Shown piece after piece: positions 2,011-42,299 of a DNA stretch of 42,299 bases. Both the position numbers and the translations under genes were made by a program. The DNA lies in the IMG/VR virus record IMGVR_UViG_3300038696_000186, positions 1 to 42,299 of that record. One strand, written 5' to 3'. The notes under the pieces are model-generated. The model made no database searches. It saw nothing but the letters and a program-made list of their open reading frames with translations, and was not told the origin of the DNA. The stretch's first letter is position 1. The number at the start of each line of letters is the position of its first letter. The DNA comes from a virus.

Positions 2011-2038
2011 TTGAAATGTAAGTTTAAAAACAAATAAT
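2011..2038 (+). promoter_or_regulatory. Candidate promoter for the rightward early operon
   Basis: TTGAAA (2011-2016), a 16-base spacer and AATAAT (2033-2038) resemble a sigma-70 promoter. Transcription would start near 2045, after the upstream ATG at 2037 and before the ATG at 2085. This is one reason for preferring the later start of the helicase. The leftward operon begins 25 bases away on the other strand, so this is a divergent control region. Confidence 0.45.
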
Positions 2039-2084
2039 GAAAAAAATTCTTGTCTTTGTCTATTTTTATTTTTACATTTCCGAC

Positions 2085-3470
2085 ATGAAAAAATTATCTC
2101 CTTCACAAATCAAAGAGAGGCTTTTCGCGTCAATCGCCTTGGAAAGCGACCTCGAAGTCCCCGCGCCTCCCGGATGCGTTTACCGCCCTTTTCAGATCGC
2201 GGGAATTCATTACATGGTTTCAAGTTTTGGGAATCGTCACTTACTCGGCGACCCAATGGGCGTCGGGAAAACTATTCAAGCGATAGGGCTTATAAATTAT
2301 CGAGGTTACAAGCGCGTGACGATAGCTTGTCCCGCGTCCCTTGTTCTCAATTGGAAAGACGAGCTTTTGACGTGGCTCGTTAATGAGACAAAAATTCATA
2401 TTATAAAGAACGGAAAAGACGTAATCCCGGAAGACGCCGAAATCGTTATCGGCTCTTATAGCCTTGTTTCCAACGCTAATATATTGAAACAATTACGTTA
2501 TGGCATGGAAACCGAGCTTTTAATTTGTGACGAATCTCACTATTTAAAGAACCCGAAAGCCGGAAGAACCAAGACGATTTTAGGCTCGGGCGGCTTAATG
2601 AAATGCGCGAAAGAGGTCATTTTTATTTCCGGGACTCAAATGCTTAACCGCCCGATTGAGCTTTTCGGGATAGTTGATTCGGCCTGTCCGGTCGCTATCG
2701 GTTTTCGCAATTGGTTTGAATACGCAAAAGATTTTTGCGGGGCCTATCATGACGGCTTCGGTTGGAACGTCGACGGGGCTTCCAATATGAACGAACTCGG
2801 ACAACGCCTTCGCTCTTATTTAATGGTTCGAAGAAGGAAAGAGAAGGTTCTCCCTCAACTTCCCGACAAGGAAGCGCGAATCGTTTTCCTTGACCCAAAC
2901 CCGGCGAGTAAAAAAGCCGCGAAGAAAATGGCGAAATTCTCTCTTGACGAAATAGAGAAAAATAAAGGAAACGCCGTCGGCTTTGAAGGTCTCTCGGAAG
3001 CAAGAAGAGAACTCGGAGAAGCGAAGGTTCCTTCGGCGATTAAGTATTTAAAAGAGAAGCTCGAAAGCGACGACGGAAAAATTATCGTCTTCGCTCACCA
3101 TAAAGACGTCATAAAGAACCTTGAAGAAGGTCTCGCCGATTATGGTCTCGTTTCGATCAAAGGGACGACCGCAAAAGAGAAGCGTCACGCGAACGTAAAG
3201 GCGTTTCAAAACGACCCGAAAATCCGCGTCTTTGTCGGCTCCATTACGGCGGCGGGAGTCGGCTTAACATTGACGGCGGCTTCTTATATCGCCTTTGTCG
3301 AGGCGTCTTGGGTCCCGGGAGAAAATCAACAAGCCTTTGACCGCGCTCATAGGATGGGACAAAAGAACTTTGTTCTCGGGGAGTTTTTAACCTTCGCCGG
3401 AACGCTCGATGAAAAGATTTTAAAAAGTCATATTGTTAAAAACAAAGTTATCCGGGAGATTATGGGATGA
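2085..3470 (+). CDS. SNF2-family DEAD/DEAH-box helicase
   Basis: A 461-aa SF2 helicase of the SNF2 type common in phage replication regions. Motif I is GDPMGVGKT (Lys62), motif II is DESH (about residue 149), motif III is SGT, and motif VI is QAFDRAHRMGQ (about residue 415), the signature of SNF2 proteins. There is no extra DNA-binding domain. The frame opens at 2037, but the first 16 residues look like translated promoter; the ATG at 2085 starts a normal sequence, though without a clear Shine-Dalgarno site. It likely remodels DNA or protein-DNA complexes in replication. The next gene overlaps it by four bases (ATGA). Confidence 0.9.
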   Translation: MKKLSPSQIKERLFASIALESDLEVPAPPGCVYRPFQIAGIHYMVSSFGNRHLLGDPMGVGKTIQAIGLINYRGYKRVTIACPASLVLNWKDELLTWLVNETKIHIIKNGKDVIPEDAEIVIGSYSLVSNANILKQLRYGMETELLICDESHYLKNPKAGRTKTILGSGGLMKCAKEVIFISGTQMLNRPIELFGIVDSACPVAIGFRNWFEYAKDFCGAYHDGFGWNVDGASNMNELGQRLRSYLMVRRRKEKVLPQLPDKEARIVFLDPNPASKKAAKKMAKFSLDEIEKNKGNAVGFEGLSEARRELGEAKVPSAIKYLKEKLESDDGKIIVFAHHKDVIKNLEEGLADYGLVSIKGTTAKEKRHANVKAFQNDPKIRVFVGSITAAGVGLTLTAASYIAFVEASWVPGENQQAFDRAHRMGQKNFVLGEFLTFAGTLDEKILKSHIVKNKVIREIMG

Positions 3471-4264
3471 ATGGAGAAGAGAAGGTCACAAAAAAAGACC
3501 TATTAGAAATTGCTATTTTAATCACAATTATGGGTCTAGTTCTCGTTTTCCTTTCGGGATGCGCGACGACTCCCCCAACAACGCCGCAAGAAGAGACGAA
3601 GCCGGTCGGACCCACAAAGCCCGAAGAGGCGGTCGAGTTAACTTTTAAGAAGGGAAGGAAAAGAATTCTTTGGTCGACTTATTACAAGACGCCCAAGCTT
3701 AAAAGCGGGACCGGCTCTTTTTGTTTAAGAGACAAAACCGCGAAATGTATTTCCGGAGGAATCCGCCACGACCAAAAATGTTTCGTACAAATGCAAGGCT
3801 CGGGCGTGATCGACGGAAAAATGTTCGCCTATCATTCCGCAAGTTCTCGCGGGATTCCCTCTTCGGACTCTTGCGCAAAATACGGAAACGCTTGGAAAGG
3901 CTCGGGGAACGTCCGGTTTTATATCTCGGAAGTTTTTAAATATGGGAAGGGCTCTTTCAATAACCCGCTCGTCCCTTATAAGTCGATAGCGTGTCCGCGT
4001 GAGTTTAAGAATAATCATAAATTTTTTATCCCGGACGCCAAAGGCGTAGTTCTTCCCGACGGTTCGACCCACAACGGCGTCTTTGTTTGTCATGATAGGG
4101 GCGGGGCGATTAAGGGAAATCATATTGATACTTTTTTGGGGCTCATAGACTATTCGACAAATTGGAAAATGTTCGACTGGAATAGAGGCGCGAAAAATAA
4201 CCCTTTTAAACACGTTAAATCAACTAAGGGCGGGACTTTCACCGCCTACGACATTAAGGAGTAA
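3467..4264 (+). CDS. Lipoprotein with a 3D (MltA-like) domain
   Basis: A 265-aa predicted lipoprotein. A charged start is followed by a hydrophobic stretch and the lipobox LSGC, with Cys32 as the lipidation site, then a Pro/Thr/Glu-rich linker. The C-terminal part has the three-aspartate pattern of 3D domains: IPDAKG, CHDRGGAIKG and HIDTFLG, in order. In MltA and related proteins this double-psi barrel fold cleaves peptidoglycan glycan strands. The gene overlaps the helicase by four bases and sits in the early operon rather than with lysis genes. It could remodel the wall, block superinfection or help lysis; the position argues against a simple endolysin. Confidence 0.8.
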   Translation: MNGEEKVTKKDLLEIAILITIMGLVLVFLSGCATTPPTTPQEETKPVGPTKPEEAVELTFKKGRKRILWSTYYKTPKLKSGTGSFCLRDKTAKCISGGIRHDQKCFVQMQGSGVIDGKMFAYHSASSRGIPSSDSCAKYGNAWKGSGNVRFYISEVFKYGKGSFNNPLVPYKSIACPREFKNNHKFFIPDAKGVVLPDGSTHNGVFVCHDRGGAIKGNHIDTFLGLIDYSTNWKMFDWNRGAKNNPFKHVKSTKGGTFTAYDIKE

Positions 4265-4267
4265 AGC

Positions 4268-4483
4268 ATGGACATAAGGAATCAATTTCCCATTTTAAAA
4301 TTCTTCAAATACGAGCATTTACCGCCCGTATTACAAGAAATTTCAAAACCTTTTTGTACTCTCGCCGAATCAATGGTCGACGGAGTCGAAAAAGACGTTT
4401 TCTTTAACCGCGCCGAAGTCGCCGCGACATTAAGAAAACTACTTGAAGCAAAAGATTGCGCCGTTCGCGCTGCTATAAAATAA
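4268..4483 (+). CDS. Acb2/Tad1-like hairpin protein, candidate nucleotide-signal sponge
   Basis: A 71-aa all-helical protein. It has the layout I associate with phage proteins annotated as Acb2/Tad1 hairpin domain: an aromatic/HLPP start (EHLPPVLQEISKPF), a central helix with LAESMV, and the C-terminal signature LRKLLEAKDCAVRAAI. Acb2 and Tad1 bind cyclic nucleotide signals made by CBASS or Thoeris defences and so stop effector activation. The assignment rests on remembered family pattern, not a search. It lies three bases after the lipoprotein gene in the early operon, where counter-defence genes are expected. Alternative: an unrelated small helical phage protein. Confidence 0.6.
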   Translation: MDIRNQFPILKFFKYEHLPPVLQEISKPFCTLAESMVDGVEKDVFFNRAEVAATLRKLLEAKDCAVRAAIK

Positions 4484-4508
4484 CTATTTTTTTTTGGAGG
4501 AATAAAGC

Positions 4509-5060
4509 ATGGAAAAATTATTTAAACTTTTACTTGTAAATTTGGCTTACGCTTTCGACGCTACGGCGAACGAAAAAGAAGTTGTCATTCTTGAAGAAGA
4601 CGAAATCGACATGACGGAAGACCTTGAGGGCGAAACTCAAGAAGAGGAAGAGACTCCCAAGAAGGAGAAAAAAGAAGAGAAGAAGGGGAAGCCAAACCCA
4701 AAACGTAAGGCCTACACGGCGGACGAGCCCGCAAAAACGAAGGCCGAAAAAGACCTCTACATGGCCCAATGGAAGGAACTCGGGGAAAAAGGTCTCCAAG
4801 ACGACTTCCTCGCCGGAAAAATCGACTCTCTCGGAAACGCTCTTGAGAGCGCGGAAGAAGACGACGAGTTCGGAGATTTTGGAGAAGTCGAAGAAACAAA
4901 AGCCGAGTTCACGGCGGAGCAAGTTCGCGAAGCTCTCAAGGCTTACGCGGCTTCAAACGGAAAGGAAGAAGCTTATAAAGTTCTTGCGCAATTTGGGGCG
5001 AAGAAAATCGCCGACATAAAAGAAGACCAATTCGCGGACGTCATGTCGGAGGTTTCTTAA
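4509..5060 (+). CDS. Acidic/lysine-rich protein with a C-terminal helical domain
   Basis: A 183-aa protein of three parts: a short hydrophobic start, a low-complexity middle (about residues 28-75) of Glu/Asp then Lys-rich blocks, and a structured C-terminus (about 133-183). The last part contains EQVREALKAYAASNGKEEAY, a pattern I have seen in small phage proteins near ssDNA-binding and recombination genes. A very strong ribosome-binding site (GGAGG, 9 bases before the ATG, after a T-run) suggests high expression. It ends directly before the DUF2800 gene. It may be a recombination or replication accessory factor; function is not established. Confidence 0.6.
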   Translation: MEKLFKLLLVNLAYAFDATANEKEVVILEEDEIDMTEDLEGETQEEEETPKKEKKEEKKGKPNPKRKAYTADEPAKTKAEKDLYMAQWKELGEKGLQDDFLAGKIDSLGNALESAEEDDEFGDFGEVEETKAEFTAEQVREALKAYAASNGKEEAYKVLAQFGAKKIADIKEDQFADVMSEVS

Positions 5061-6194
5061 ATGTCTGGACCTATGGCCCACGCAAAACTCGGAGCTTCGA
5101 GCGCAAGCCGTTGGCTCAATTGTCCCGGTTCTATTCGGATGGGACAAAATACCGTTGAAAGGCGAACTTCCAAGTTCGCTTCTCAAGGAACCGCCGCGCA
5201 CGAACTCGGCGAGCTTTGTCTCGAAACCGGGAAAAACGCGAAGGACTTTAAAGGGCGAAAACTTGAAGCGGACGGCTTAACTTTCATCGTCGACGACGAC
5301 ATGATCGACGCCGTTCAAGTCTACGTCGACCACGTCCGCAAGGTCGCGGGCGATAACCAAATCGACATTGAAGTCCGCTTCGACCTTTCGTGGCTTCATC
5401 CTAATATGTTTGGGACGAATGACGCTTGCGTCGCGGAAGAGTTCGGAGACTTACACGTCTTTGACTATAAACACGGAGCGGGCGTCCCGGTTGACGTCAC
5501 GAATAATTCTCAACTTCTCTATTATGGAATAGGGCGAGCATACGACAAGGACCGGAAAGAATGGGGCGATTTTGAAAACGTCCACTTGCATATAGTTCAA
5601 CCGCGTTGCTTTCATCCGGACGGCGTTGTCCGGACGTGGACCGTCCCCATGAGTTACTTAAAAGAATTCGCGGACGTTCTTAAACGAGGCGCGGTCGCGA
5701 CGGAAGCTCCCGACGCTCCTTTGAGCGCGGGCGACCATTGCCGTTGGTGTTCGGCGGCGGGCTTTTGTCCCGAGCTTGCAAGACAAACCCAAGCGGTCGC
5801 AAGAGCGGAGTTCGGCTCCCCAATGCCCGAAGTCGAGAAACTCACGACCGAACAAATTTCAAAGATTGTCCAAAGTGAAAGCATGATTAAAGGCTTTTTG
5901 GAAGAAGTAAGGGAGTACGCGCTTCATTTAAAATTACAAGGCGAAGACCTTCCGGGGCTTAAACTTGTGAGGAAGAGAAGTTCTCGCGAATGGCGAGACG
6001 AAGAATTCGTGAAGCGATCTCTCGGAAAGGCTTTCCCAATGGAGAAGGTTTTCAATATGAAAATGAAGACCGTCGCCCAAATGGAGAAGTCCGTCGGAAA
6101 AGAAGTCGTTAAAGATTTATTTTTAAAAGTTGACGGGGATTTAACCGTCGCAAAGACAAGCGACCGTCGAAAAGCGGTTGACTTAGATCAATAA
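5061..6194 (+). CDS. DUF2800 PD-(D/E)XK nuclease-like protein
   Basis: A 377-aa protein of the DUF2800 family, distant relatives of Cas4/RecB-type nucleases. It has the characteristic opening ASSASRWLNCPGSIRM, then GTAAHELGE, and the nuclease core HVFDYKHGAGVPVD, in which Asp and Lys fit the D-x-K catalytic pair. A CRWCSAAGFCP cluster with an upstream Cys may bind an iron-sulphur cluster or zinc. The gene lies between an acidic protein and the DUF2815 ssDNA-binding protein, a common phage arrangement suggesting end processing or recombination. It starts directly after the previous stop codon. Confidence 0.85.
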   Translation: MSGPMAHAKLGASSASRWLNCPGSIRMGQNTVERRTSKFASQGTAAHELGELCLETGKNAKDFKGRKLEADGLTFIVDDDMIDAVQVYVDHVRKVAGDNQIDIEVRFDLSWLHPNMFGTNDACVAEEFGDLHVFDYKHGAGVPVDVTNNSQLLYYGIGRAYDKDRKEWGDFENVHLHIVQPRCFHPDGVVRTWTVPMSYLKEFADVLKRGAVATEAPDAPLSAGDHCRWCSAAGFCPELARQTQAVARAEFGSPMPEVEKLTTEQISKIVQSESMIKGFLEEVREYALHLKLQGEDLPGLKLVRKRSSREWRDEEFVKRSLGKAFPMEKVFNMKMKTVAQMEKSVGKEVVKDLFLKVDGDLTVAKTSDRRKAVDLDQ

Positions 6195-6222
6195 TACCAC
6201 TCAAGACAAAAGGAGTCTTAAA

Positions 6223-6834
6223 ATGAATAACGCAAAAACAAAAAGTAACGTTATGAGCCCAAAATTCCGCGCATTTTACGCGAACGTTTGGGAACCAAGG
6301 GCAATGCAAGAAGGGAAAGAGCCATTTTATTCGGTTATGATGGTCTTCGACAAAGAAGCGCAAGCGACGGACGAGTTTAAGGCCCTTAAACGCGAAGCCA
6401 TGAAAGCGGCGAAGGAAAAGTTCGGAGAGAAACTTCCTTCAAACCTAAGAACTCCATTTCGTAAGGGCGAGGAAAAGCTCGACACAAACGGAATGGAAGC
6501 GGATTTTGTTTTCGTTAACGCGAAATCAAAATACCAGCCGGGCGTCGTGGACCAAGGGGCTCGCGATATTATCGACAAGGACGCTTTTTATTCTGGATGC
6601 TACGCTCGCGCGACGGTTATGGCTTACGCTTACGACGTTCAAGGAAATAAAGGAGTCGCCTTTGGTCTTCAAAACCTCCAAAAGCTAGGAGAAGGCGAAG
6701 TTCTCGGCGGTCGTAAAGCGGCGAAGGATGAATTTTCCGTCGTCGAAGGTTTTGATTCAAACGAAAGTGATTTCGGAGAAGACGATTTCGGTTCGAGTGA
6801 AGGCGAATCGAACGACGACGACTTCGGAATTTAA
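6223..6834 (+). CDS. DUF2815 single-stranded DNA-binding protein
   Basis: A 203-aa protein of the DUF2815 family, phage ssDNA-binding proteins with an OB fold like T7 gp2.5. Family features include VWEPRAMQEGKEPFYSVMMV near the N-terminus, FYSGCYARATVMAYAYD in the middle, then GVAFGLQNLQKLGEGE. The C-terminus is strongly acidic and ends in DDDFGI, as expected for an SSB tail that recruits polymerase and other replication proteins. It is followed at once by a terminator, so it may be the most abundant product of this part of the operon. Confidence 0.9.
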   Translation: MNNAKTKSNVMSPKFRAFYANVWEPRAMQEGKEPFYSVMMVFDKEAQATDEFKALKREAMKAAKEKFGEKLPSNLRTPFRKGEEKLDTNGMEADFVFVNAKSKYQPGVVDQGARDIIDKDAFYSGCYARATVMAYAYDVQGNKGVAFGLQNLQKLGEGEVLGGRKAAKDEFSVVEGFDSNESDFGEDDFGSSEGESNDDDFGI

Positions 6835-6845
6835 CTTGGGTCATA

Positions 6846-6887
6846 GCGGGCGGGTCGTGTCGGAACCTCCCGTCCGCTTTTTTTTTT
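6846..6887 (+). terminator. Rho-independent terminator after the SSB gene
   Basis: GCGGGCGGG (6846-6854) pairs with CCCGTCCGC (6869-6877), a 9-bp stem with one G-U pair and a 14-base loop, followed by ten T residues (6878-6887). It lies between the SSB stop and the polymerase start, only 10 bases before the polymerase ATG. It probably lowers polymerase transcription relative to SSB. Confidence 0.9.
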
Positions 6888-6897
6888 GGAAAACTTT

Positions 6898-8976
6898 ATG
6901 GCAAAAATAATTAACCTCGATTTCGAAACAAAGTCCGCTTGCGATATTAAGAAGGCGGGCGCGTGGCGGTATTCTCGCGACGAATCGACCGAAGTTTTAT
7001 GTTTTGCATATCGAATCGACGGCGGACCGATTGATATTTGGTCCCCGTTTTTATCTGATTTCGACGACAATAAAATCCCGCAAGACCTCCGGGAAGCTAT
7101 CGGAGAAGGCGCGACGATTCACGCTTGGAACTCCTTCTTTGAGTTCTCAATTTGGAATAACGTTTTAAGCGAGTTCCCGGGATTTATGAAACTTCCGCTC
7201 TCGCGCTTTATGGACACGGCGGCGAAGGCGGCGGCCCTTGCGCTCCCTCGTAACCTTGAAGAGGGGGCGAAGGCGATAGGGCTTCCCATTGAAAAGGACA
7301 TGACCGGGCGGCGTTTAATGCTCAAAATGTCCAAACCAAGGAAAGCTCGTAAGGAAGAGAAGAAACAAATTTTAAGCGACCCGAGTATTATCGCCCTCGA
7401 CGACGGCGGGTTTGAGCATTGTCCGGGCGGCGACCCTCACGGAGAGAAGTTTTATTTATGGCACGAAGAGCCCGCCGACATTCTTCGCCTTTTTGAATAC
7501 TGTAAAAAAGACGTCGAGGTCGAATCGGCGGTCGCTACGCGGATTTTGAATCTCCCTTGGTCCGATAGCGAGAGAAACCTTTGGCTATTCGATCAAAGAG
7601 TTAACCTTCGCGGCGTCCCCGTTGACATTGACATGGTCGGAAAAGCCCTTGGGTTTTTGGCGAAATACTTCCGAGAACTTCTCGGAGAACTTAACGAAAT
7701 AACAAACGGCGAAGTCACGACCGCCGGACAACGCGCCCGGATTCTCGCATGGCTTGAAAAAAGAGGCGTCGTCCTTGAAGGTCTCACAAAAGACCACGTT
7801 ACGGCGGCTTTAAAAGACGACTCAATCGACGCCAAATCAAAGCGCGTTCTTGAGATTCGTCTTCTTCTTGGAAAGACTTCCACAAAGAAACTTGAATCAA
7901 TGCTTAAATGCGTGGACCAAGCCGACGGAAGGGTTCGCGGGACTCTCCTTTATCATGGGGCTTCGACGGGGCGTTGGTCCGGTCGACTTATTCAACCGCA
8001 AAACTTCCCAAGAGGCTCGCTCAAAGAAGACGAAGTTCTTCTCGCTTTTGAGCGTCTCAACCGGGGCGGTTATGAGAATTTTCGCGAGCATTATCCGGAC
8101 TTATTAGACGCGATTTCTTCCATGCTTCGTGGCTTCATAAAGGCGAAGAAGGGGCGGGAGTTTATCGCCGCCGACTTCTCTTCGATTGAATCCCGCGCTC
8201 TTTTTTGGCTTGCAAAAGAAGAAGCCGGACTCGAAGTTTATAGGACTCACGGAAAAATCTATGAAGACATGGCGGGGACGATTTATAACAAATCAATCGA
8301 CCAAATAGGGAAGGGCTCTTTCGAGCGTCAGCTAGGAAAGCAAGCCGTTCTCGGATGCGGTTATGGGATGGGAGGTCCGAAGTTCCAAACGACTTGCGAA
8401 GGTTACGGAATGGACGTCTCGAAAGACCTCGCAAAATTTACGGTCTCGGCGTTTCGTGCGAAGTTCCCGGACGTTGTCGGTTATTGGCGACTTCTCGAAA
8501 ATGCGGCGATTATGGCCGTGAAGAATCCCGGGAAAGCCTATCCTGCGAACTCGGTCGCGTTCAAAGTCGCGAAGGGCTTTTTGTGGGCGCGTCTTCCAAG
8601 CGGACGACTTCTCGCTTATTATAAGCCGAGATTAAAAGCGAAAGAAACCCCTTGGGGCGAAAAGAAGCTCGCCGTCACTTACATGGGCTTAAACTCTCAA
8701 ACGAGAAAATGGGAGCGACAATCGACTTACGGAGGAAAGCTTTGTGAGAACGTGACCCAAGCGGTCGCCCGTGATCTCATGGCGGAAGCTATGACTCGCC
8801 TCGAAGCGAATCATTATCCGGTTATCATGACCGTTCATGACGAAGTCGTCTCGGAAGTTCCCGAAGGTTTTGGGACGGTTAACGAATTCGAACTCTTACT
8901 TAATACGCTCCCCAAATGGGCGAGTAAGCTCCCGGTTGAATCCGAAGGATGGCGCGGGAAAAGGTTTAAAAAATAA
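6898..8976 (+). CDS. Family A DNA polymerase with 3'-5' exonuclease domain
   Basis: A 692-aa replicative polymerase of the Pol I family. The exonuclease domain starts with NLDFETKSA (Exo I) and has CKKDVEVESAV (Exo III, about residue 203). The polymerase domain has motif A FIAADFSSIESRAL (about 422-435), motif B RQLGKQAVLGCGYGMGG (about 477) and motif C MTVHDEV (about 644), so all catalytic carboxylates are present. A 5'-nuclease domain is absent, as in many phage enzymes. The frame extends to a TTG at 6886, inside the terminator tail; ATG at 6898 with GGAA upstream is preferred. Its stop overlaps the amidase start (TAATG). Confidence 0.95.
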   Translation: MAKIINLDFETKSACDIKKAGAWRYSRDESTEVLCFAYRIDGGPIDIWSPFLSDFDDNKIPQDLREAIGEGATIHAWNSFFEFSIWNNVLSEFPGFMKLPLSRFMDTAAKAAALALPRNLEEGAKAIGLPIEKDMTGRRLMLKMSKPRKARKEEKKQILSDPSIIALDDGGFEHCPGGDPHGEKFYLWHEEPADILRLFEYCKKDVEVESAVATRILNLPWSDSERNLWLFDQRVNLRGVPVDIDMVGKALGFLAKYFRELLGELNEITNGEVTTAGQRARILAWLEKRGVVLEGLTKDHVTAALKDDSIDAKSKRVLEIRLLLGKTSTKKLESMLKCVDQADGRVRGTLLYHGASTGRWSGRLIQPQNFPRGSLKEDEVLLAFERLNRGGYENFREHYPDLLDAISSMLRGFIKAKKGREFIAADFSSIESRALFWLAKEEAGLEVYRTHGKIYEDMAGTIYNKSIDQIGKGSFERQLGKQAVLGCGYGMGGPKFQTTCEGYGMDVSKDLAKFTVSAFRAKFPDVVGYWRLLENAAIMAVKNPGKAYPANSVAFKVAKGFLWARLPSGRLLAYYKPRLKAKETPWGEKKLAVTYMGLNSQTRKWERQSTYGGKLCENVTQAVARDLMAEAMTRLEANHYPVIMTVHDEVVSEVPEGFGTVNEFELLLNTLPKWASKLPVESEGWRGKRFKK

Positions 8977-37199: not shown

Positions 37200-37662
37200 A
37201 TAGTTTTAGCATCCTTTCCAAAACTTCGGAGGGAACGTTCGAAAGGTCGTGAGACGTTGAGACGTTCCCGGTTATTTCTACTTTGTCGGAAAACATTTTT
37301 AAGTACTTCCCTTGAAGCTCGGTCGCTTTCAAGAAGGAGCCGAGTTCTCTTTTCATGTTTCCGTTTGCGTCTACCTTGGGAATCATGGCCTCACTTTTTG
37401 CGAGTTCGAGGTCGGCGAGAATCTTTTCGACCGTTATGTTCGCCGACTCCATGCTCTTTCGAGTAAGCTCCGCAAGGGCGTCTCTTACGACTTTCTTTTG
37501 AAGAAGTTTTCTCGCCTGATTATAAAGCGTCGCCTTGTTTCCATTATATCCCGCAGCGGCGGCGGCTTCGCCTCCGTTCATTCCGTTGCGGACGTACTCT
37601 TCGACAAAGAGGGCTTGCTTTATTGTTAACTCTCCGGCGTGTTCGAGGTCTTTAAATTTCAT
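37171..37662 (-). CDS. terS: Terminase small subunit
   Basis: A 163-aa protein of the Terminase_2 family. The N-terminal DNA-binding part has LTIKQALFVEEYVRNGMNGG, EAAAAAGYNG and ATLYNQARKLLQKKVVRDAL, the standard helix-turn-helix layout; a coiled coil and oligomerisation region follow. It recognises the pac site and regulates TerL. The frame opens at 37704, but ATG at 37662 is preferred because it overlaps the stop of the zinc protein gene (ATGA). Confidence 0.9.
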   Translation of the reverse strand: MKFKDLEHAGELTIKQALFVEEYVRNGMNGGEAAAAAGYNGNKATLYNQARKLLQKKVVRDALAELTRKSMESANITVEKILADLELAKSEAMIPKVDANGNMKRELGSFLKATELQGKYLKMFSDKVEITGNVSTSHDLSNVPSEVLERMLKLYEQSAAGPK

Positions 37663-37835
37663 GAGCCTATTTTCTCCCGTTGACCAAGAAGCGACGAAGT
37701 CCATTCCGGCGATTCTTTACATTTCAGACAAACGCGGTTGAATACGTTTCGGGATTTAAACTTCCCGCCGCATTTGAGACAAGGTCTCAATGCCCATTTA
37801 ACCGCTTTTTCGGACTTCCGTTTCCCCGCGCTCAT
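37659..37835 (-). CDS. 58-aa zinc-ribbon protein before the terminase genes
   Basis: A short protein with two Cys pairs: CLKCGGKFKSRNVFNRVCLKC spread over residues 19-39 (CxxC, 13 residues, CxxC). This pattern is found in small phage zinc-ribbon proteins (like 'Sxgpgn-R-C-xxC' types) near terminase and regulatory genes. The start is Lys-rich (SAGKRKSEK). It overlaps terS by four bases (ATGA), which also fixes the terS start. AGGG stands before the ATG. It may act in late gene expression or DNA packaging; no function is established. Confidence 0.75.
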   Translation of the reverse strand: MSAGKRKSEKAVKWALRPCLKCGGKFKSRNVFNRVCLKCKESPEWTSSLLGQREKIGS

Positions 37836-37850
37836 TTCTTACTTTCCCTC

Positions 37851-37955
37851 GTCAACTTTGTTTTGACAATAATTTTACGGGATTATCGGAATTTCCGCAA
37901 CTTAGGGAGCGAAATAGTCGGAGATTCATAGTTGACTTGTCTCGTCAATTTTGAC
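37851..37955. promoter_or_regulatory. Cluster of TTGAC/GTCAA units before the late operon
   Basis: TTGAC or its complement GTCAA occurs five times: 37851 (GTCAA), 37863 (TTGAC), 37932 (TTGAC), 37944 (GTCAA) and 37951 (TTGAC). They form inverted pairs such as GTCAACTTTGTTTTGAC and GTCAATTTTGAC. The region separates the leftward late operon from a rightward small gene and holds a possible promoter. Paired half-sites suggest operators, with the Cro-like protein as candidate binder. Confidence 0.45.
37872..37900 (-). promoter_or_regulatory. Candidate late promoter
   Basis: On the minus strand TTGCGG (37900-37895), a 17-base spacer and TAAAAT (37877-37872) resemble a sigma-70 promoter. It points into the late operon, with about 30 bases of leader before the zinc protein start at 37835. 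It is flanked by TTGAC/GTCAA units on both sides. If used, phage late genes depend on host polymerase; no phage RNA polymerase is present. Confidence 0.45.
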
Positions 37956-38046
37956 TTAACGTGTTAAAATAAGTTAATCACGAACCCGGAGGCAATTGTT
38001 CGACGCGGCGATTTTGGTCGTCGACGTCAAGGAAAAAAAAAAAATA

Positions 38047-38163
38047 ATGGAAGAAGAAGAACGTTTATGTTACTGCGGGCGTTGTCGTTATTGCGACGCC
38101 TTTTTATCAAGCGAAGACGACTATCCCGAACCGTGTCCGCGTTGTACGCGCTGCGAAGAGTAG
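38047..38163 (+). CDS. 38-aa cysteine-rich protein
   Basis: A tiny open frame with seven cysteines in 38 residues: LCYCGRCRYCDAF near the start and PCPRCTRCEE at the end, with an acidic middle (SSEDDYPE). The spacing (CxCxxCxxC ... CxxCxxC) suits a zinc-binding knot. It starts after a run of 12 or more A residues, with AGGA 14 bases before the ATG, a weak site. A strong terminator follows 8 bases after the stop. It lies alone on the plus strand between leftward blocks. A dense Cys pattern and a proper terminator support it as real. Confidence 0.5.
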   Translation: MEEEERLCYCGRCRYCDAFLSSEDDYPEPCPRCTRCEE

Positions 38164-38170
38164 TTCAAAA

Positions 38171-38206
38171 ACGCCCGCTCGGAAAAAGCATAAACCGAGC
38201 GGACGT
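38171..38206. terminator. Bidirectional terminator between converging genes
   Basis: ACGCCCGCTCGG (38171-38182) and CCGAGCGGACGT (38195-38206) form a 12-bp stem with one mismatch and a 12-base loop. On the minus strand it is followed by TTTTT, a good terminator for the replication block; on the plus strand a looser T-rich tail (TTCATTTCAGTTTTT) follows the 38-aa gene. Confidence 0.8.
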
Positions 38207-38246
38207 TTCATTTCAGTTTTTCAACCGAAGGACAAATCTTATATTT

Positions 38247-38708
38247 TCAAAATCCGTTCTCAAGGTCAAGCAAGCGCGCTCGCGTTTGTGACGCATCGAA
38301 AATATTTTCACGCCCATAATAGGCGATGTAAGGCTCTTTAACTTGCTCCCTAGCCAGAACCCTCCCCCGAGCTTTGAAATAGCTATAACGCCAAATTAAG
38401 AGCCTTAGATCGCCCCTTGCGACTTTGACGAAGAGTCCGACGAGCGCGAGACCGCCGGAACGCTCGAATTTTTCGAGCGCGTCGCGTTGATTTGGGGAGA
38501 GTGAGTTTTGATTTATGGACTCGGGAGCCTTGCGCCATTTGAACTCGATAGCGGTCGCGCGTCCGTCGATTGACGCGACCATGTCAAAAGGGCGCGCGAT
38601 CTTAAACCGGGAAGACGTGTCGTCCGGAATTTTATAGGCGTAATGCCCGAGCTTTTCGAGAGTCTTTCGAAAGTGATTTGTAAGTTCGGTTTCTTTTCCT
38701 CGGGCCAT
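38247..38708 (-). CDS. PD-(D/E)XK nuclease, RecU-like Holliday junction resolvase candidate
   Basis: A 153-aa protein with the nuclease core RPFDMV (Asp42) and AIEFKW (Glu55, Lys57), preceded by a helix with acidic residues near position 6-8. The order 'helix, KIPDD, PFDMVASIDGRATAIEFKWR, SLSPNQRDALEKFERSGGLA' matches small phage RecU/Holliday-junction-resolvase-like proteins, where the SL-NQ and GG blocks are conserved. It could resolve recombination intermediates before packaging. It is last in the leftward replication block, before a terminator. Confidence 0.78.
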   Translation of the reverse strand: MARGKETELTNHFRKTLEKLGHYAYKIPDDTSSRFKIARPFDMVASIDGRATAIEFKWRKAPESINQNSLSPNQRDALEKFERSGGLALVGLFVKVARGDLRLLIWRYSYFKARGRVLAREQVKEPYIAYYGRENIFDASQTRARLLDLENGF

Positions 38709-38723
38709 GCGGGGAGGTTACTC

Positions 38724-38936
38724 TTAAAACCATTCTCCGTCGAGAAATTCGCTCATACCTTCCGGCTCGCTCTCGCCTATGTGACGATAAGGTTTTTCGC
38801 GCCCTTTGACGAAAATCTTTGTCATAGTCACTTCGTCATTGTCCTCGAAAAAAAAAAACTTCGACATGAGAGACGGAGTCTCGACCGTGATTGTTAAATC
38901 TCTTTTTATAACGCGCCCCATTATATCTGTGTTCAC
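38724..38936 (-). CDS. Hypothetical 70-aa protein
   Basis: Not recognised. It starts with GTG at 38936 (GGGGCGG upstream) or ATG at 38921, so the start is unsure. The first half has strand-like VIKRDLTITVETPSLMSKFF, the second is charged (KGREKPYRHIGESEPEG). It lies 15 bases before the resolvase-like gene and just after the candidate origin, whose AT-rich part is non-coding. Confidence 0.5.
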   Translation of the reverse strand: MNTDIMGRVIKRDLTITVETPSLMSKFFFFEDNDEVTMTKIFVKGREKPYRHIGESEPEGMSEFLDGEWF

Positions 38937-39254
38937 GCCGCCCCAATTCTTACGCGCGACGTCGGTTTTAAGGTGTTCCCCCCATGTTACCGTTTGTTTT
39001 TCATAGGGTAACGCCGTAAGTCCTTATTTATATTATTCTTGTTACCTTGTTACCCTTGTTACCCTTAAAAAATAATACTTATATAAGAGAAATAGTAGTT
39101 TTTACATTATAAATACATTGATTAAAGAGGTTAATAACTACGAACATACACGTTAAAAATATCTAATAAGGTTCAAAACATAAGGGTAACGGGGCACAAG
39201 GGGAACGCGCCTCATAATTTCAAAGGCTTACGGCGCGCGTGTTACCCCCCTTCG
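38937..39254. other. Non-coding iteron and AT-rich tract, candidate replication origin
   Basis: This 318-base stretch has no gene. It holds seven copies of GTTACC or its complement: direct at 38986, 39041, 39049, 39058 and 39241; inverted at 39007 and 39185. The three middle copies form a tandem repeat of CTTGTTACC at 8-9-base spacing. Between the groups lies a strongly AT-rich stretch (about 39064-39180) that would melt easily. It lies directly downstream of the primase/helicase gene. Repeats beside an AT-rich zone are typical for plasmid and phage origins. Confidence 0.65.
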
Positions 39255-41636
39255 CTAAATTTCGAAATCGGGCTCGAACGGTTCCTCGTCAAAATCGACG
39301 ACGCCGACCAAATCCGAAGCGTGAAAATCGCTCGGTTTTTCAATTTGATTTTGAAAATAATAAGACTCGAACGCCTCCGAAACTTTTATTTTTTTGACTG
39401 GAGTCGTGCGGCCGCCGAGTCGGGCCCTTTGTTTTCCGGTCGGAATTTCCGGAATTAAGTCTTTCGTCTTGTGCCAAAACTTCGCCGCGCTCAAAGATTT
39501 TTCCCAAGTGTTCGTCTTTTTTGCGTAGTCAATAAACGCGTCAAACGCTTTTTTATTGACCAAAGTCCTTTCGTCCGACCAAGGCGAAGACTCTAAATGT
39601 CCGTTAAAAAGGTCGTTCCAAAATTCCGACACGACTCCGCCGGTCCTTACTTTCGCCGAAGAGCCCTTGAGATTCCCCGCCGGAATAGCGACCGGGTTCC
39701 AAGCGGAAATGTCTCTCGCCATTAAGAATGTATAAAACGCCTCGATCAAGTCCCCCTTACGGGCCGCTTGCCAAATTGGGTCGAAGTAGTCTGAATTCCC
39801 GGCGAACTCGTCGCTTGATTCAATGGGATAATAACGGCGATTTGAAGTCTCAATGGCGACGGCCTCTTCATTGTTTGACGTTATGGCGTAGCGCGAAAAG
39901 TTCTCCGTCTCATACTTAGGGCCGAACTTAACTTCGACGGTTAACCTATTCCCGCCCGTGAGATTCTTCAAGACTCCGTCTTCGGTCTTATTCCCTCGCC
40001 AAGTCGCCTCGTCTATGACCGTTAAAAGGCGGTTTGCAAGGTCCGTATTGAATTGGGCGGTTAAGTCCTTCGCCGTCTTCACGGTCAAGAATAAGTCCTT
40101 TAAAATCGCTCTCATGACGTAGTCAAAGAGAAGACCTTTCCCGGTCCCTTGGGGCCCAACGATAACTGGAACGACGGTCGGTTTCTCATGGGGCCTTTGA
40201 AGAGCATGGGCGAGGAAGCTCAAGAGCCATTCGGAGGCGTTGTCGTCTCCGCCACAAAGCGAGTCTTTTATCATTGCTATGAACTCGGGGAGTCCGGCGA
40301 CGCTCATAGGCGGTCGAGTTATCTTTTTACAAGGTATTCCCTCAAAGAGGTTTATTCTCCCTTTGTCGGGCGAGGCGTCCGGGTCCGGATTAAAACAAGG
40401 GACCACAAAGCGAGCTTTATTCTTTGAGCCGAGCCATATATCGGCGGCGGGCTCTTTGACGAGCTTAACGTCGGTCGCCATAACCTTTAAGTATTTATAT
40501 TGATATTCCCGCGTCGCTTCAATCATTCCCCGACTCGTCATGGCCTTGAGCTTCTTCACGCCCGAGCCATCCTTTGAAACCTTTATGACCGAGAAGCGTT
40601 GTTCGCCTTCTCCTAAGTAGGCGAAGCCTTTTCGGTTGAAATGCTTAACAATGGCGCGCTTATTAGTGCAAACCCAAGTTTCGGCGTCGTCCTCGTCTTC
40701 GACGAAGCCGTCCTCCGTCTCGTTCGTTTCGACCCATGATTCGAAAGAGTCTATTTTTGCTTTTTTAAAGGCTTCTTTGTCGCTCTCATAATGAGGGTTC
40801 GGAACGACGCCGCCTTTTTGTCTTACTAAGAAGCCGAGAGTTAAAGGAGAGATCGAACCTTCTTCGCCGCTTCTTTTAAAACTCTCCCACTTCTCGCAAG
40901 CCTTCTCTTCGTCGCCGGGCTCGTAGGATTCCCCTTGAGATAGCTCAATAAAAAGATCACGCCCCACGTCGGAAGGCTCCGCCGCGTGAAGGGCCATTCC
41001 CGCTTGGACCCATTCATGGTAGTCGAGTTCGTGCTTCTTTAATTCTGCGACAAGCCGCCCGAGATAATCGTCTCCGAACTTGAAAGTCGGATTCGCCTTT
41101 CCTTTGAGAGCGGTTTTTTCTAGGTATTTCGCGAGCCATTTCGGGGGCTCGGCGTCCTTGTCGTGATTCTTCCAGTTAACCCAAGTGTATTTCTTTTTCG
41201 TCTCGGGATGGGTCGACGGGAAAACGACGATGTAGCCATTAAACATTATGTCGATTCCGTCTTTGATCTTTCCGCGATATTTCGCCCCTTCGCTCGCCTT
41301 GAATACGTAATGGCGCGCCCCGGAGCCCGAGACCGCGCGAAGGACATTTGGAAGAACCTCGTCGGCCTTTTTATGCTCTTCAAGAAGAGCATCCCACGCT
41401 TCGACGCCGCCATGTTTGAAATCAACGTCAACGGCGACAAGACCCGAGCGCGAACAAGCGACCGCCCAATTACAGCCGGGAAACTTCTCGGACCATTTAA
41501 GGAGTTGAGAGAAGTCGTCACTTGCGGCGTTTAAGTTGTCTTTAATTGCCGGACGTTTCGTCTTCGGGATAACCGGGAAGAGTTTCCAACCTCGACGACA
41601 ATATATTTTTAAAACGTTTTGAATTTTTTCATTCAT
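39255..41636 (-). CDS. Primase-polymerase / superfamily 3-type helicase fusion
   Basis: A 793-aa replication protein. The N-terminal prim-pol domain has VAVDVDFKHGG (metal-binding Asp pair, about 68-78), SGSGARHYVF (about 104-113) and YIVVFPS. The middle resembles a primase C-terminal linker (KHELDYHEWVQAGMALHAAE). The helicase part has Walker A VGPQGTGKG (about residue 492) and Walker B LLTVIDEATW (about 538), as in D5/DUF5906-type helicases. It would open the origin, unwind and prime DNA. ATG overlaps the previous small gene (ATGA). With family A polymerase and SSB on the opposite operon the replisome is nearly complete. Confidence 0.93.
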   Translation of the reverse strand: MNEKIQNVLKIYCRRGWKLFPVIPKTKRPAIKDNLNAASDDFSQLLKWSEKFPGCNWAVACSRSGLVAVDVDFKHGGVEAWDALLEEHKKADEVLPNVLRAVSGSGARHYVFKASEGAKYRGKIKDGIDIMFNGYIVVFPSTHPETKKKYTWVNWKNHDKDAEPPKWLAKYLEKTALKGKANPTFKFGDDYLGRLVAELKKHELDYHEWVQAGMALHAAEPSDVGRDLFIELSQGESYEPGDEEKACEKWESFKRSGEEGSISPLTLGFLVRQKGGVVPNPHYESDKEAFKKAKIDSFESWVETNETEDGFVEDEDDAETWVCTNKRAIVKHFNRKGFAYLGEGEQRFSVIKVSKDGSGVKKLKAMTSRGMIEATREYQYKYLKVMATDVKLVKEPAADIWLGSKNKARFVVPCFNPDPDASPDKGRINLFEGIPCKKITRPPMSVAGLPEFIAMIKDSLCGGDDNASEWLLSFLAHALQRPHEKPTVVPVIVGPQGTGKGLLFDYVMRAILKDLFLTVKTAKDLTAQFNTDLANRLLTVIDEATWRGNKTEDGVLKNLTGGNRLTVEVKFGPKYETENFSRYAITSNNEEAVAIETSNRRYYPIESSDEFAGNSDYFDPIWQAARKGDLIEAFYTFLMARDISAWNPVAIPAGNLKGSSAKVRTGGVVSEFWNDLFNGHLESSPWSDERTLVNKKAFDAFIDYAKKTNTWEKSLSAAKFWHKTKDLIPEIPTGKQRARLGGRTTPVKKIKVSEAFESYYFQNQIEKPSDFHASDLVGVVDFDEEPFEPDFEI

Positions 41637-42164: not shown

Positions 42165-42299
42165 TTGTAGTCCCGAGAACATGGAGTAGGCAATAATCCA
42201 AATTCTTTCCCGTCTATGTGGCGCACCAATGGAGCAAGCTGATATAATATGCCATTCCGCATTATACCCGATCGCCCGTAAATCTTTGAGACTCTTGCA
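42165..42299. repeat. Contig-end overlap, right copy
   Basis: This copy matches positions 1-136 except for one G missing near 42290. Single-base differences at a GG pair at the very end of a contig are typical of low read support, so the left copy is taken as correct; it keeps the methyltransferase frame open. The unique genome is then 42,164 bases. Confidence 0.9.

Follow-up and report, generated by a model that had tools for sequence, protein, structure and literature searches.

Mirrored iterons about an AT-rich tract beside a primase-helicase gene: a probable replication origin in an uncultured tailed phage

In the PICI elements, the origin of replication directly follows the 3' end of the initiator gene, and an AT-rich region is always bordered by two sets of iterons (PMC6092414). 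The SCCmec helicase Cch2 binds direct repeats located just downstream of its own gene through its C-terminal domain, a type of binding that had previously been reported for the SaPI Rep proteins (PMC7581432). In the phages BIP-1 and BPP-1, which encode proteins of the Prim-Pol/PriCT_2/SF3 type, a large downstream stem-loop has been proposed as the origin (PMC4234260). The record of Streptococcus phage Sfi21 (NC_000872, 34487-34784) annotates a 302-bp origin directly after a DUF5906/Pox_D5 gene, and labels this origin as a phage inhibitory sequence. In the Sfi21 block, as read here, copies of GTTAC repeat at steps of 8 bp, in mirror image on the two sides of an AT tract. The alpha protein of P4 combines a primase, an SF3 helicase, and an iteron-binding domain in one protein.

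The window, that is, the whole stretch of DNA analyzed here, comprises 42,299 bp and makes up one virus record. Its ends overlap by 136 bp (135/136 identical, with one gap), so the molecule is circular or circularly permuted, with a length of approximately 42.16 kb. The overlapping ends (1-136 and 42165-42299) belong to a C-5 cytosine methylase gene, whose reading frame continues across the junction. The genes of a tailed phage are encoded (terminase, portal, capsid, tail sheath, tape measure, and baseplate), together with an exonuclease and a group of replication genes at 2037-8976, which includes a helicase, a family-A polymerase, and a Gp2.5-like SSB. Searches for Rfam families and tRNAs found none. 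The element was not classed as a PICI, a satellite without its own full set of virion genes, because it has portal, capsid, sheath, tape measure, baseplate, and terminase genes.

The block at 38937-39254 is bounded by the stop codon of a gene for a 793-aa protein on one side and by the start of a 70-aa ORF on the other, with a VRR-NUC-like gene beyond the latter. Its immediate neighbors are:

38247..38708, minus strand: VRR-NUC / Holliday-junction-resolvase-like gene, the counterpart of which in the related genome G056 is also found 3' of the primase gap
38724..38936, minus strand: 70-aa ORF with a GTG start, just past the candidate origin and without a known family
39255..41636, minus strand: probable initiator, a 793-aa Prim-Pol / PriCT_2 / DUF5906 (SF3-type) primase-helicase (PHROG 1156)

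This block is probably the replication origin of the phage (a probability of roughly 85%), at which the primase-helicase would bind the iterons, melt the AT tract, and carry out the priming. The anatomy of the block, its position, and the comparative pattern support this reading. Bacterial satellites and certain phages are known to have this layout, and the present locus adds one more case. A probable origin and a probable initiator are located in an uncultured tailed phage.

The first-pass annotation, which was based on the letters alone, had described seven GTTACC/GGTAAC copies, three of them in tandem, inverted copies on both sides, and an AT-rich stretch of about 115 bases adjoining a primase-polymerase/helicase gene, and each of these points was recovered here. 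The exact search returned seven copies between 38986 and 39246, the stop codon of the 793-aa gene directly adjoins the block, and the minus-strand copies are those at 39007 and 39185. The mirrored degenerate set at 39185-39206 is an addition to these observations. The elements of the block are:

38986..38991, plus strand: outer iteron GTTACC of the left side, an exact match that forms an inverted pair with the copy at 39007
39007..39012, minus strand: outer iteron GGTAAC of the left side, an exact match
39038..39063, plus strand: tandem triplet, three copies of CTTGTTACC at steps of 8 and 9 bp (TRF period 9, 3.3 copies, 95% matches)
39068..39180, no strand: AT-rich tract of 113 bp, 80% AT, a probable DNA unwinding element
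39185..39206, minus strand: mirrored iteron set, with an exact GGTAAC at 39185 and the decayed GGCACA (39193) and GGGAAC (39201), at 8-bp steps
39241..39246, plus strand: outer iteron GTTACC of the right side, an exact match close to the stop codon of the initiator

The clustering of GTTACC is far beyond chance. The copies at 38986(+), 39007(-), 39041(+), 39049(+), 39058(+), 39185(-), and 39241(+) represent 7 of the 11 found in the window, and are contained within 261 bp, while the total of 11 is itself at the level expected by chance (12.3 +/- 4.1). The cluster scan gave a bound of 1.3e-10, whereas 100 dinucleotide shuffles produced no hexamer with a bound better than 4.8e-5. In the window, the exact search found CTTGTTACC only at 39038, 39046, and 39055, and the most AT-rich 115-mer starts at 39069, with nearly all of it being overlapped by 39068-39180. 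The right set is the weaker of the two, with one exact and two decayed units plus the outer copy, while the left set has the exact triplet and the outer pair; the degenerate inverted set on the far side has a shuffle p of 0.0006, in a test devised post hoc. The innermost decamers, GTTACCCTTA and TAAGGGTAAC, are perfect complements, with TAAGGGTAAC complementing 39058-39067. The block is the only multi-word cluster of mirrored repeats in the window.

The first-pass annotation had also considered the block to be the only non-coding stretch of more than 300 bases, which is not fully correct: no long ORF occupies 37705-38246 (542 bp) either, and once a credible 58-aa gene is subtracted, the remaining 411 bp (37836-38246) are still without a convincing one. 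This 58-aa gene, at 37659-37835 on the minus strand, encodes a CxxC protein, overlaps terS, and is kept just before terS in two related genomes, G056 and G057. A small CxxC-rich ORF on the plus strand (37996-38163), amid minus-strand genes, is preceded by a possible ribosome site and may be a real gene. A strong terminator-like hairpin, CGCTCGG...CCGAGCG followed by GGCGTTTTT, was seen by eye past the nuclease gene, at approximately 38160-38205 on the minus strand, where it separates this gene from the terminase genes. The GC skew was a check proposed by the first-pass annotation. Its extremes are found at approximately 2.2 and 10.2 kb, away from the block, and were set aside as uninformative for the location of the origin because both coincide with switches of gene direction.

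The helicase part of the 793-aa protein matches PDB 6k9c/6k9e, which is named “Primase”, and its C-terminal domain has no Pfam match. The AlphaFold models, one of the full-length protein and one of its last 154 aa, have pLDDT values of 40 and 38, which is too poor to show a DNA-binding domain. Judging from its relatives, the primase-helicase would bind the iteron sets from both sides, probably through the C-terminal domain, and would assemble as two oppositely facing hexamers, which would then melt the AT tract. The same protein would also make the first primers, after which the forks would be extended, probably bidirectionally, by the family-A polymerase, SSB, and helicase that the phage itself encodes. 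The assignment of the initiator role to this adjoining protein, as had been suggested beforehand, is supported by the position, the architecture, and the comparison with annotated or experimentally tested origins, which likewise support the origin reading itself.

The relatives of the replicon provide a further line of comparison. The closest terL relative (L004, 99%) does not quite reach the block, as it ends at window position 38709. The exact-repeat search and DNA similarity recovered no close copy, no DNA-level relative of the replication region was found in the phage collection, and the primase-based scans of viral and genome contigs recovered no relative. A scan with the capsid protein led to two genomes in which the primase-helicase has a full-length orthologue. 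In the first, G056 (44% identity over 785 aa), the order is primase, gap, nuclease, 58-aa CxxC gene, and terS, and TTGTCC iterons at 9-10-bp steps are mirrored about an AT-rich tract (up to 82%), starting within approximately 110 bp of the stop codon; the unit of this genome, CTTGTCCAC, resembles the CTTGTTACC of the window. In the second, G057 (40% identity), no clear mirrored set was found downstream of the primase, and there is a 23-bp tandem repeat at the primase stop (L332:4225-4282), with TGTATATACA palindromes 450-670 bp further on. None of nine related virus records, among them two with the orthologous gene, contains tandem copies of GTTACC. The exact word is therefore not conserved, and the layout has persisted in one orthologue at least, that of G056. 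The conservation of the repeats that the first-pass annotation had proposed as a check is thus found in the layout, in one of the two orthologous replicons, and not in the word, which changes.

A motif-blind sample of 12 records with primase-helicase homologues, chosen from tblastn matches, was examined in the same way. Mirrored tandem words are present within approximately 510 bp 3' of the homologue gene in half of these records (6/12), each with its own word: ACCAAG in a Citrobacter plasmid, TGTCCA in a Roseomonas plasmid, GTGCAG in a Methylobacterium plasmid, TTTCCA in V. vulnificus pMP1, ACCCTG in the Moraxella phage Mcat3, and TATGAC in Rhizobium pTH2c. The layout is absent, by the same criterion, from the other six (ZP6, Simon, DoCa6, phiH2, PaMx11, and RHph_I65).

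Viral contigs contain at least 120 triplets of GTTACC at short steps, although this raw count is not evidence by itself, because triplets of the reversed control word, CCATTG, are likewise abundant among the matches listed. Inverted tandem copies are found nearby in 25 of 80 GTTACC loci, compared with 6 of 80 control loci, among the matches listed, which are a selected sample and reflect association only. The GTTACC triplets, again among the matches listed, prefer steps of 8-10 bp, and many are located just 3' of genes encoding 500-850 aa, several of which have VapE-like, DUF5906, or DUF927 domains. Some CCATTG clusters with inverted tandem copies also face the stop of a large ORF (L215, L239, L246, and L268), and are possible origins with another word. 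In a sample obtained with a Walker-A pattern (L138-L181), DUF5906-like initiators of approximately 515-568 aa have 9-bp iterons just downstream, and the iteron word differs between members (AACGTATA, AGTGTATA, GTGATAAA, AAACGTCA, ACTACACT, and others). At one further locus (L014:6246-6273 and 6341-6354), three tandem copies of TAGCCTACA and their inverted counterparts, on the far side of an AT-rich spacer, are located upstream and not downstream of the primase-helicase gene.

The combination of a constant geometry and a word that changes rapidly, across phages, satellites, and plasmids, is suggestive. It may be proposed, tentatively and at somewhat less than even odds, that one general design is shared by phages, satellites, small plasmids, and some “stem-loop” origins: iterons in steps of 8-10 bp, mirrored on either side of an AT-rich tract and located just 3' of an initiator of the SF3/VapE/DUF927 type, with the geometry fixed and the word exchanged between close relatives. 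If this is true, the word and its initiator would constitute a switchable replicon identity. The matching of the word to the initiator is directly testable, and iteron decoys are a possible tool for the inhibition of phages.

The block may instead be an operator and promoter, at which the repeats bind a phage regulator, such as a small HTH protein, and control the operon of the 70-aa and nuclease genes, with the AT tract as the promoter. Two features are relevant here:

499-729: gene for a 76-aa Cro/CI-like HTH protein
39106..39134, minus strand: promoter-like TTAACC-17-TATAAT in the AT tract, directed toward the 70-aa gene, 10/12 matches

This alternative is quite unlikely. The phage does encode such a protein, and the promoter-like sequence points at the 70-aa gene, but the match is not above that of the shuffles, the other four GTTACC copies in the window all lie outside intergenic stretches, neither the 147-bp leader of the HTH gene nor the divergent gap at 1986-2036 contains GTTACC, and the layout resembles that of origins rather than operators. 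The earlier suggestion that a small neighbor binds the repeats is unsupported, given that the 70-aa protein has no recognizable family and the flanks of the HTH gene lack GTTACC. Origin and operator roles could coexist in the block.

It is very improbable that the origin is of the structure type proposed for pRN1 and BIP-1 (PMC4234260), with the initiator recognizing a large stem-loop or cruciform and the hexamers having no role of their own. The 793-aa protein shares its Prim-Pol/PriCT_2/SF3 composition with BIP-1, and mirrored repeats can pair, but the fold of the 318-nt strand has a z of -1.5, and an equal or better fold was obtained for 9 of 100 shuffles. In the Bordetella phage BPP-1, moreover, the 48-nt arms of the stem-loop (L313:1108-1211) hold tandem TTTGCCTCG / AAACGAGGC at 9-bp steps, and the pairing of the arms would therefore follow from mirrored iterons. 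A pRN1-type stem-loop origin was considered separately and rejected, as the block is not predicted to form the large, stable stem-loop of that type.

That the block is some other cis site (a packaging pac site, a partition centromere, or a regulatory incompatibility cluster like P4 crr) and not the initiation point is extremely unlikely, for while the terminase genes are approximately 1.3 kb away and iteron clusters distinct from the initiation point exist, as in P4 crr, the genome has no second multi-word iteron cluster to act as the origin, and an origin accords both with an AT-rich tract enclosed by mirrored sets and with the location 3' of the initiator.

The replication-origin reading places the locus alongside the PICI and SaPI origins (PMC6092414, PMC7581432), in which the origin is immediately 3' of the initiator gene and two opposed iteron sets flank an AT tract, all of which are found in the window. 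Some members also have a fused primase-helicase initiator, as the window does; by contrast, the right iteron set of the window is partly decayed, and the element is not a satellite but a complete tailed phage, which encodes a capsid, sheath, tape measure, polymerase, and SSB of its own. Compared with the window, P4 differs in its TOPRIM-type primase and its iteron word, and its crr has no counterpart seen in the window. The BPP-1/BIP-1 phages share the replication-protein family (PHROG 1156), the mirrored 9-bp repeats, and a similar order of primase, stretch without same-strand genes, nuclease-like gene, terS, and terL, although the word is TTTGCCTCG, the spacer is shorter and less AT-rich, and the repeats are approximately 470-570 bp from the stop codon. 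In Sfi21, the Prim-Pol and helicase are separate genes and the word is mainly GTTACT, with the exact GTTACC of the window being absent from its origin block, but the two loci share a non-coding block of approximately 300 bp after a DUF5906 helicase gene, the core GTTAC, and mirrored tandem copies at 8-bp steps.
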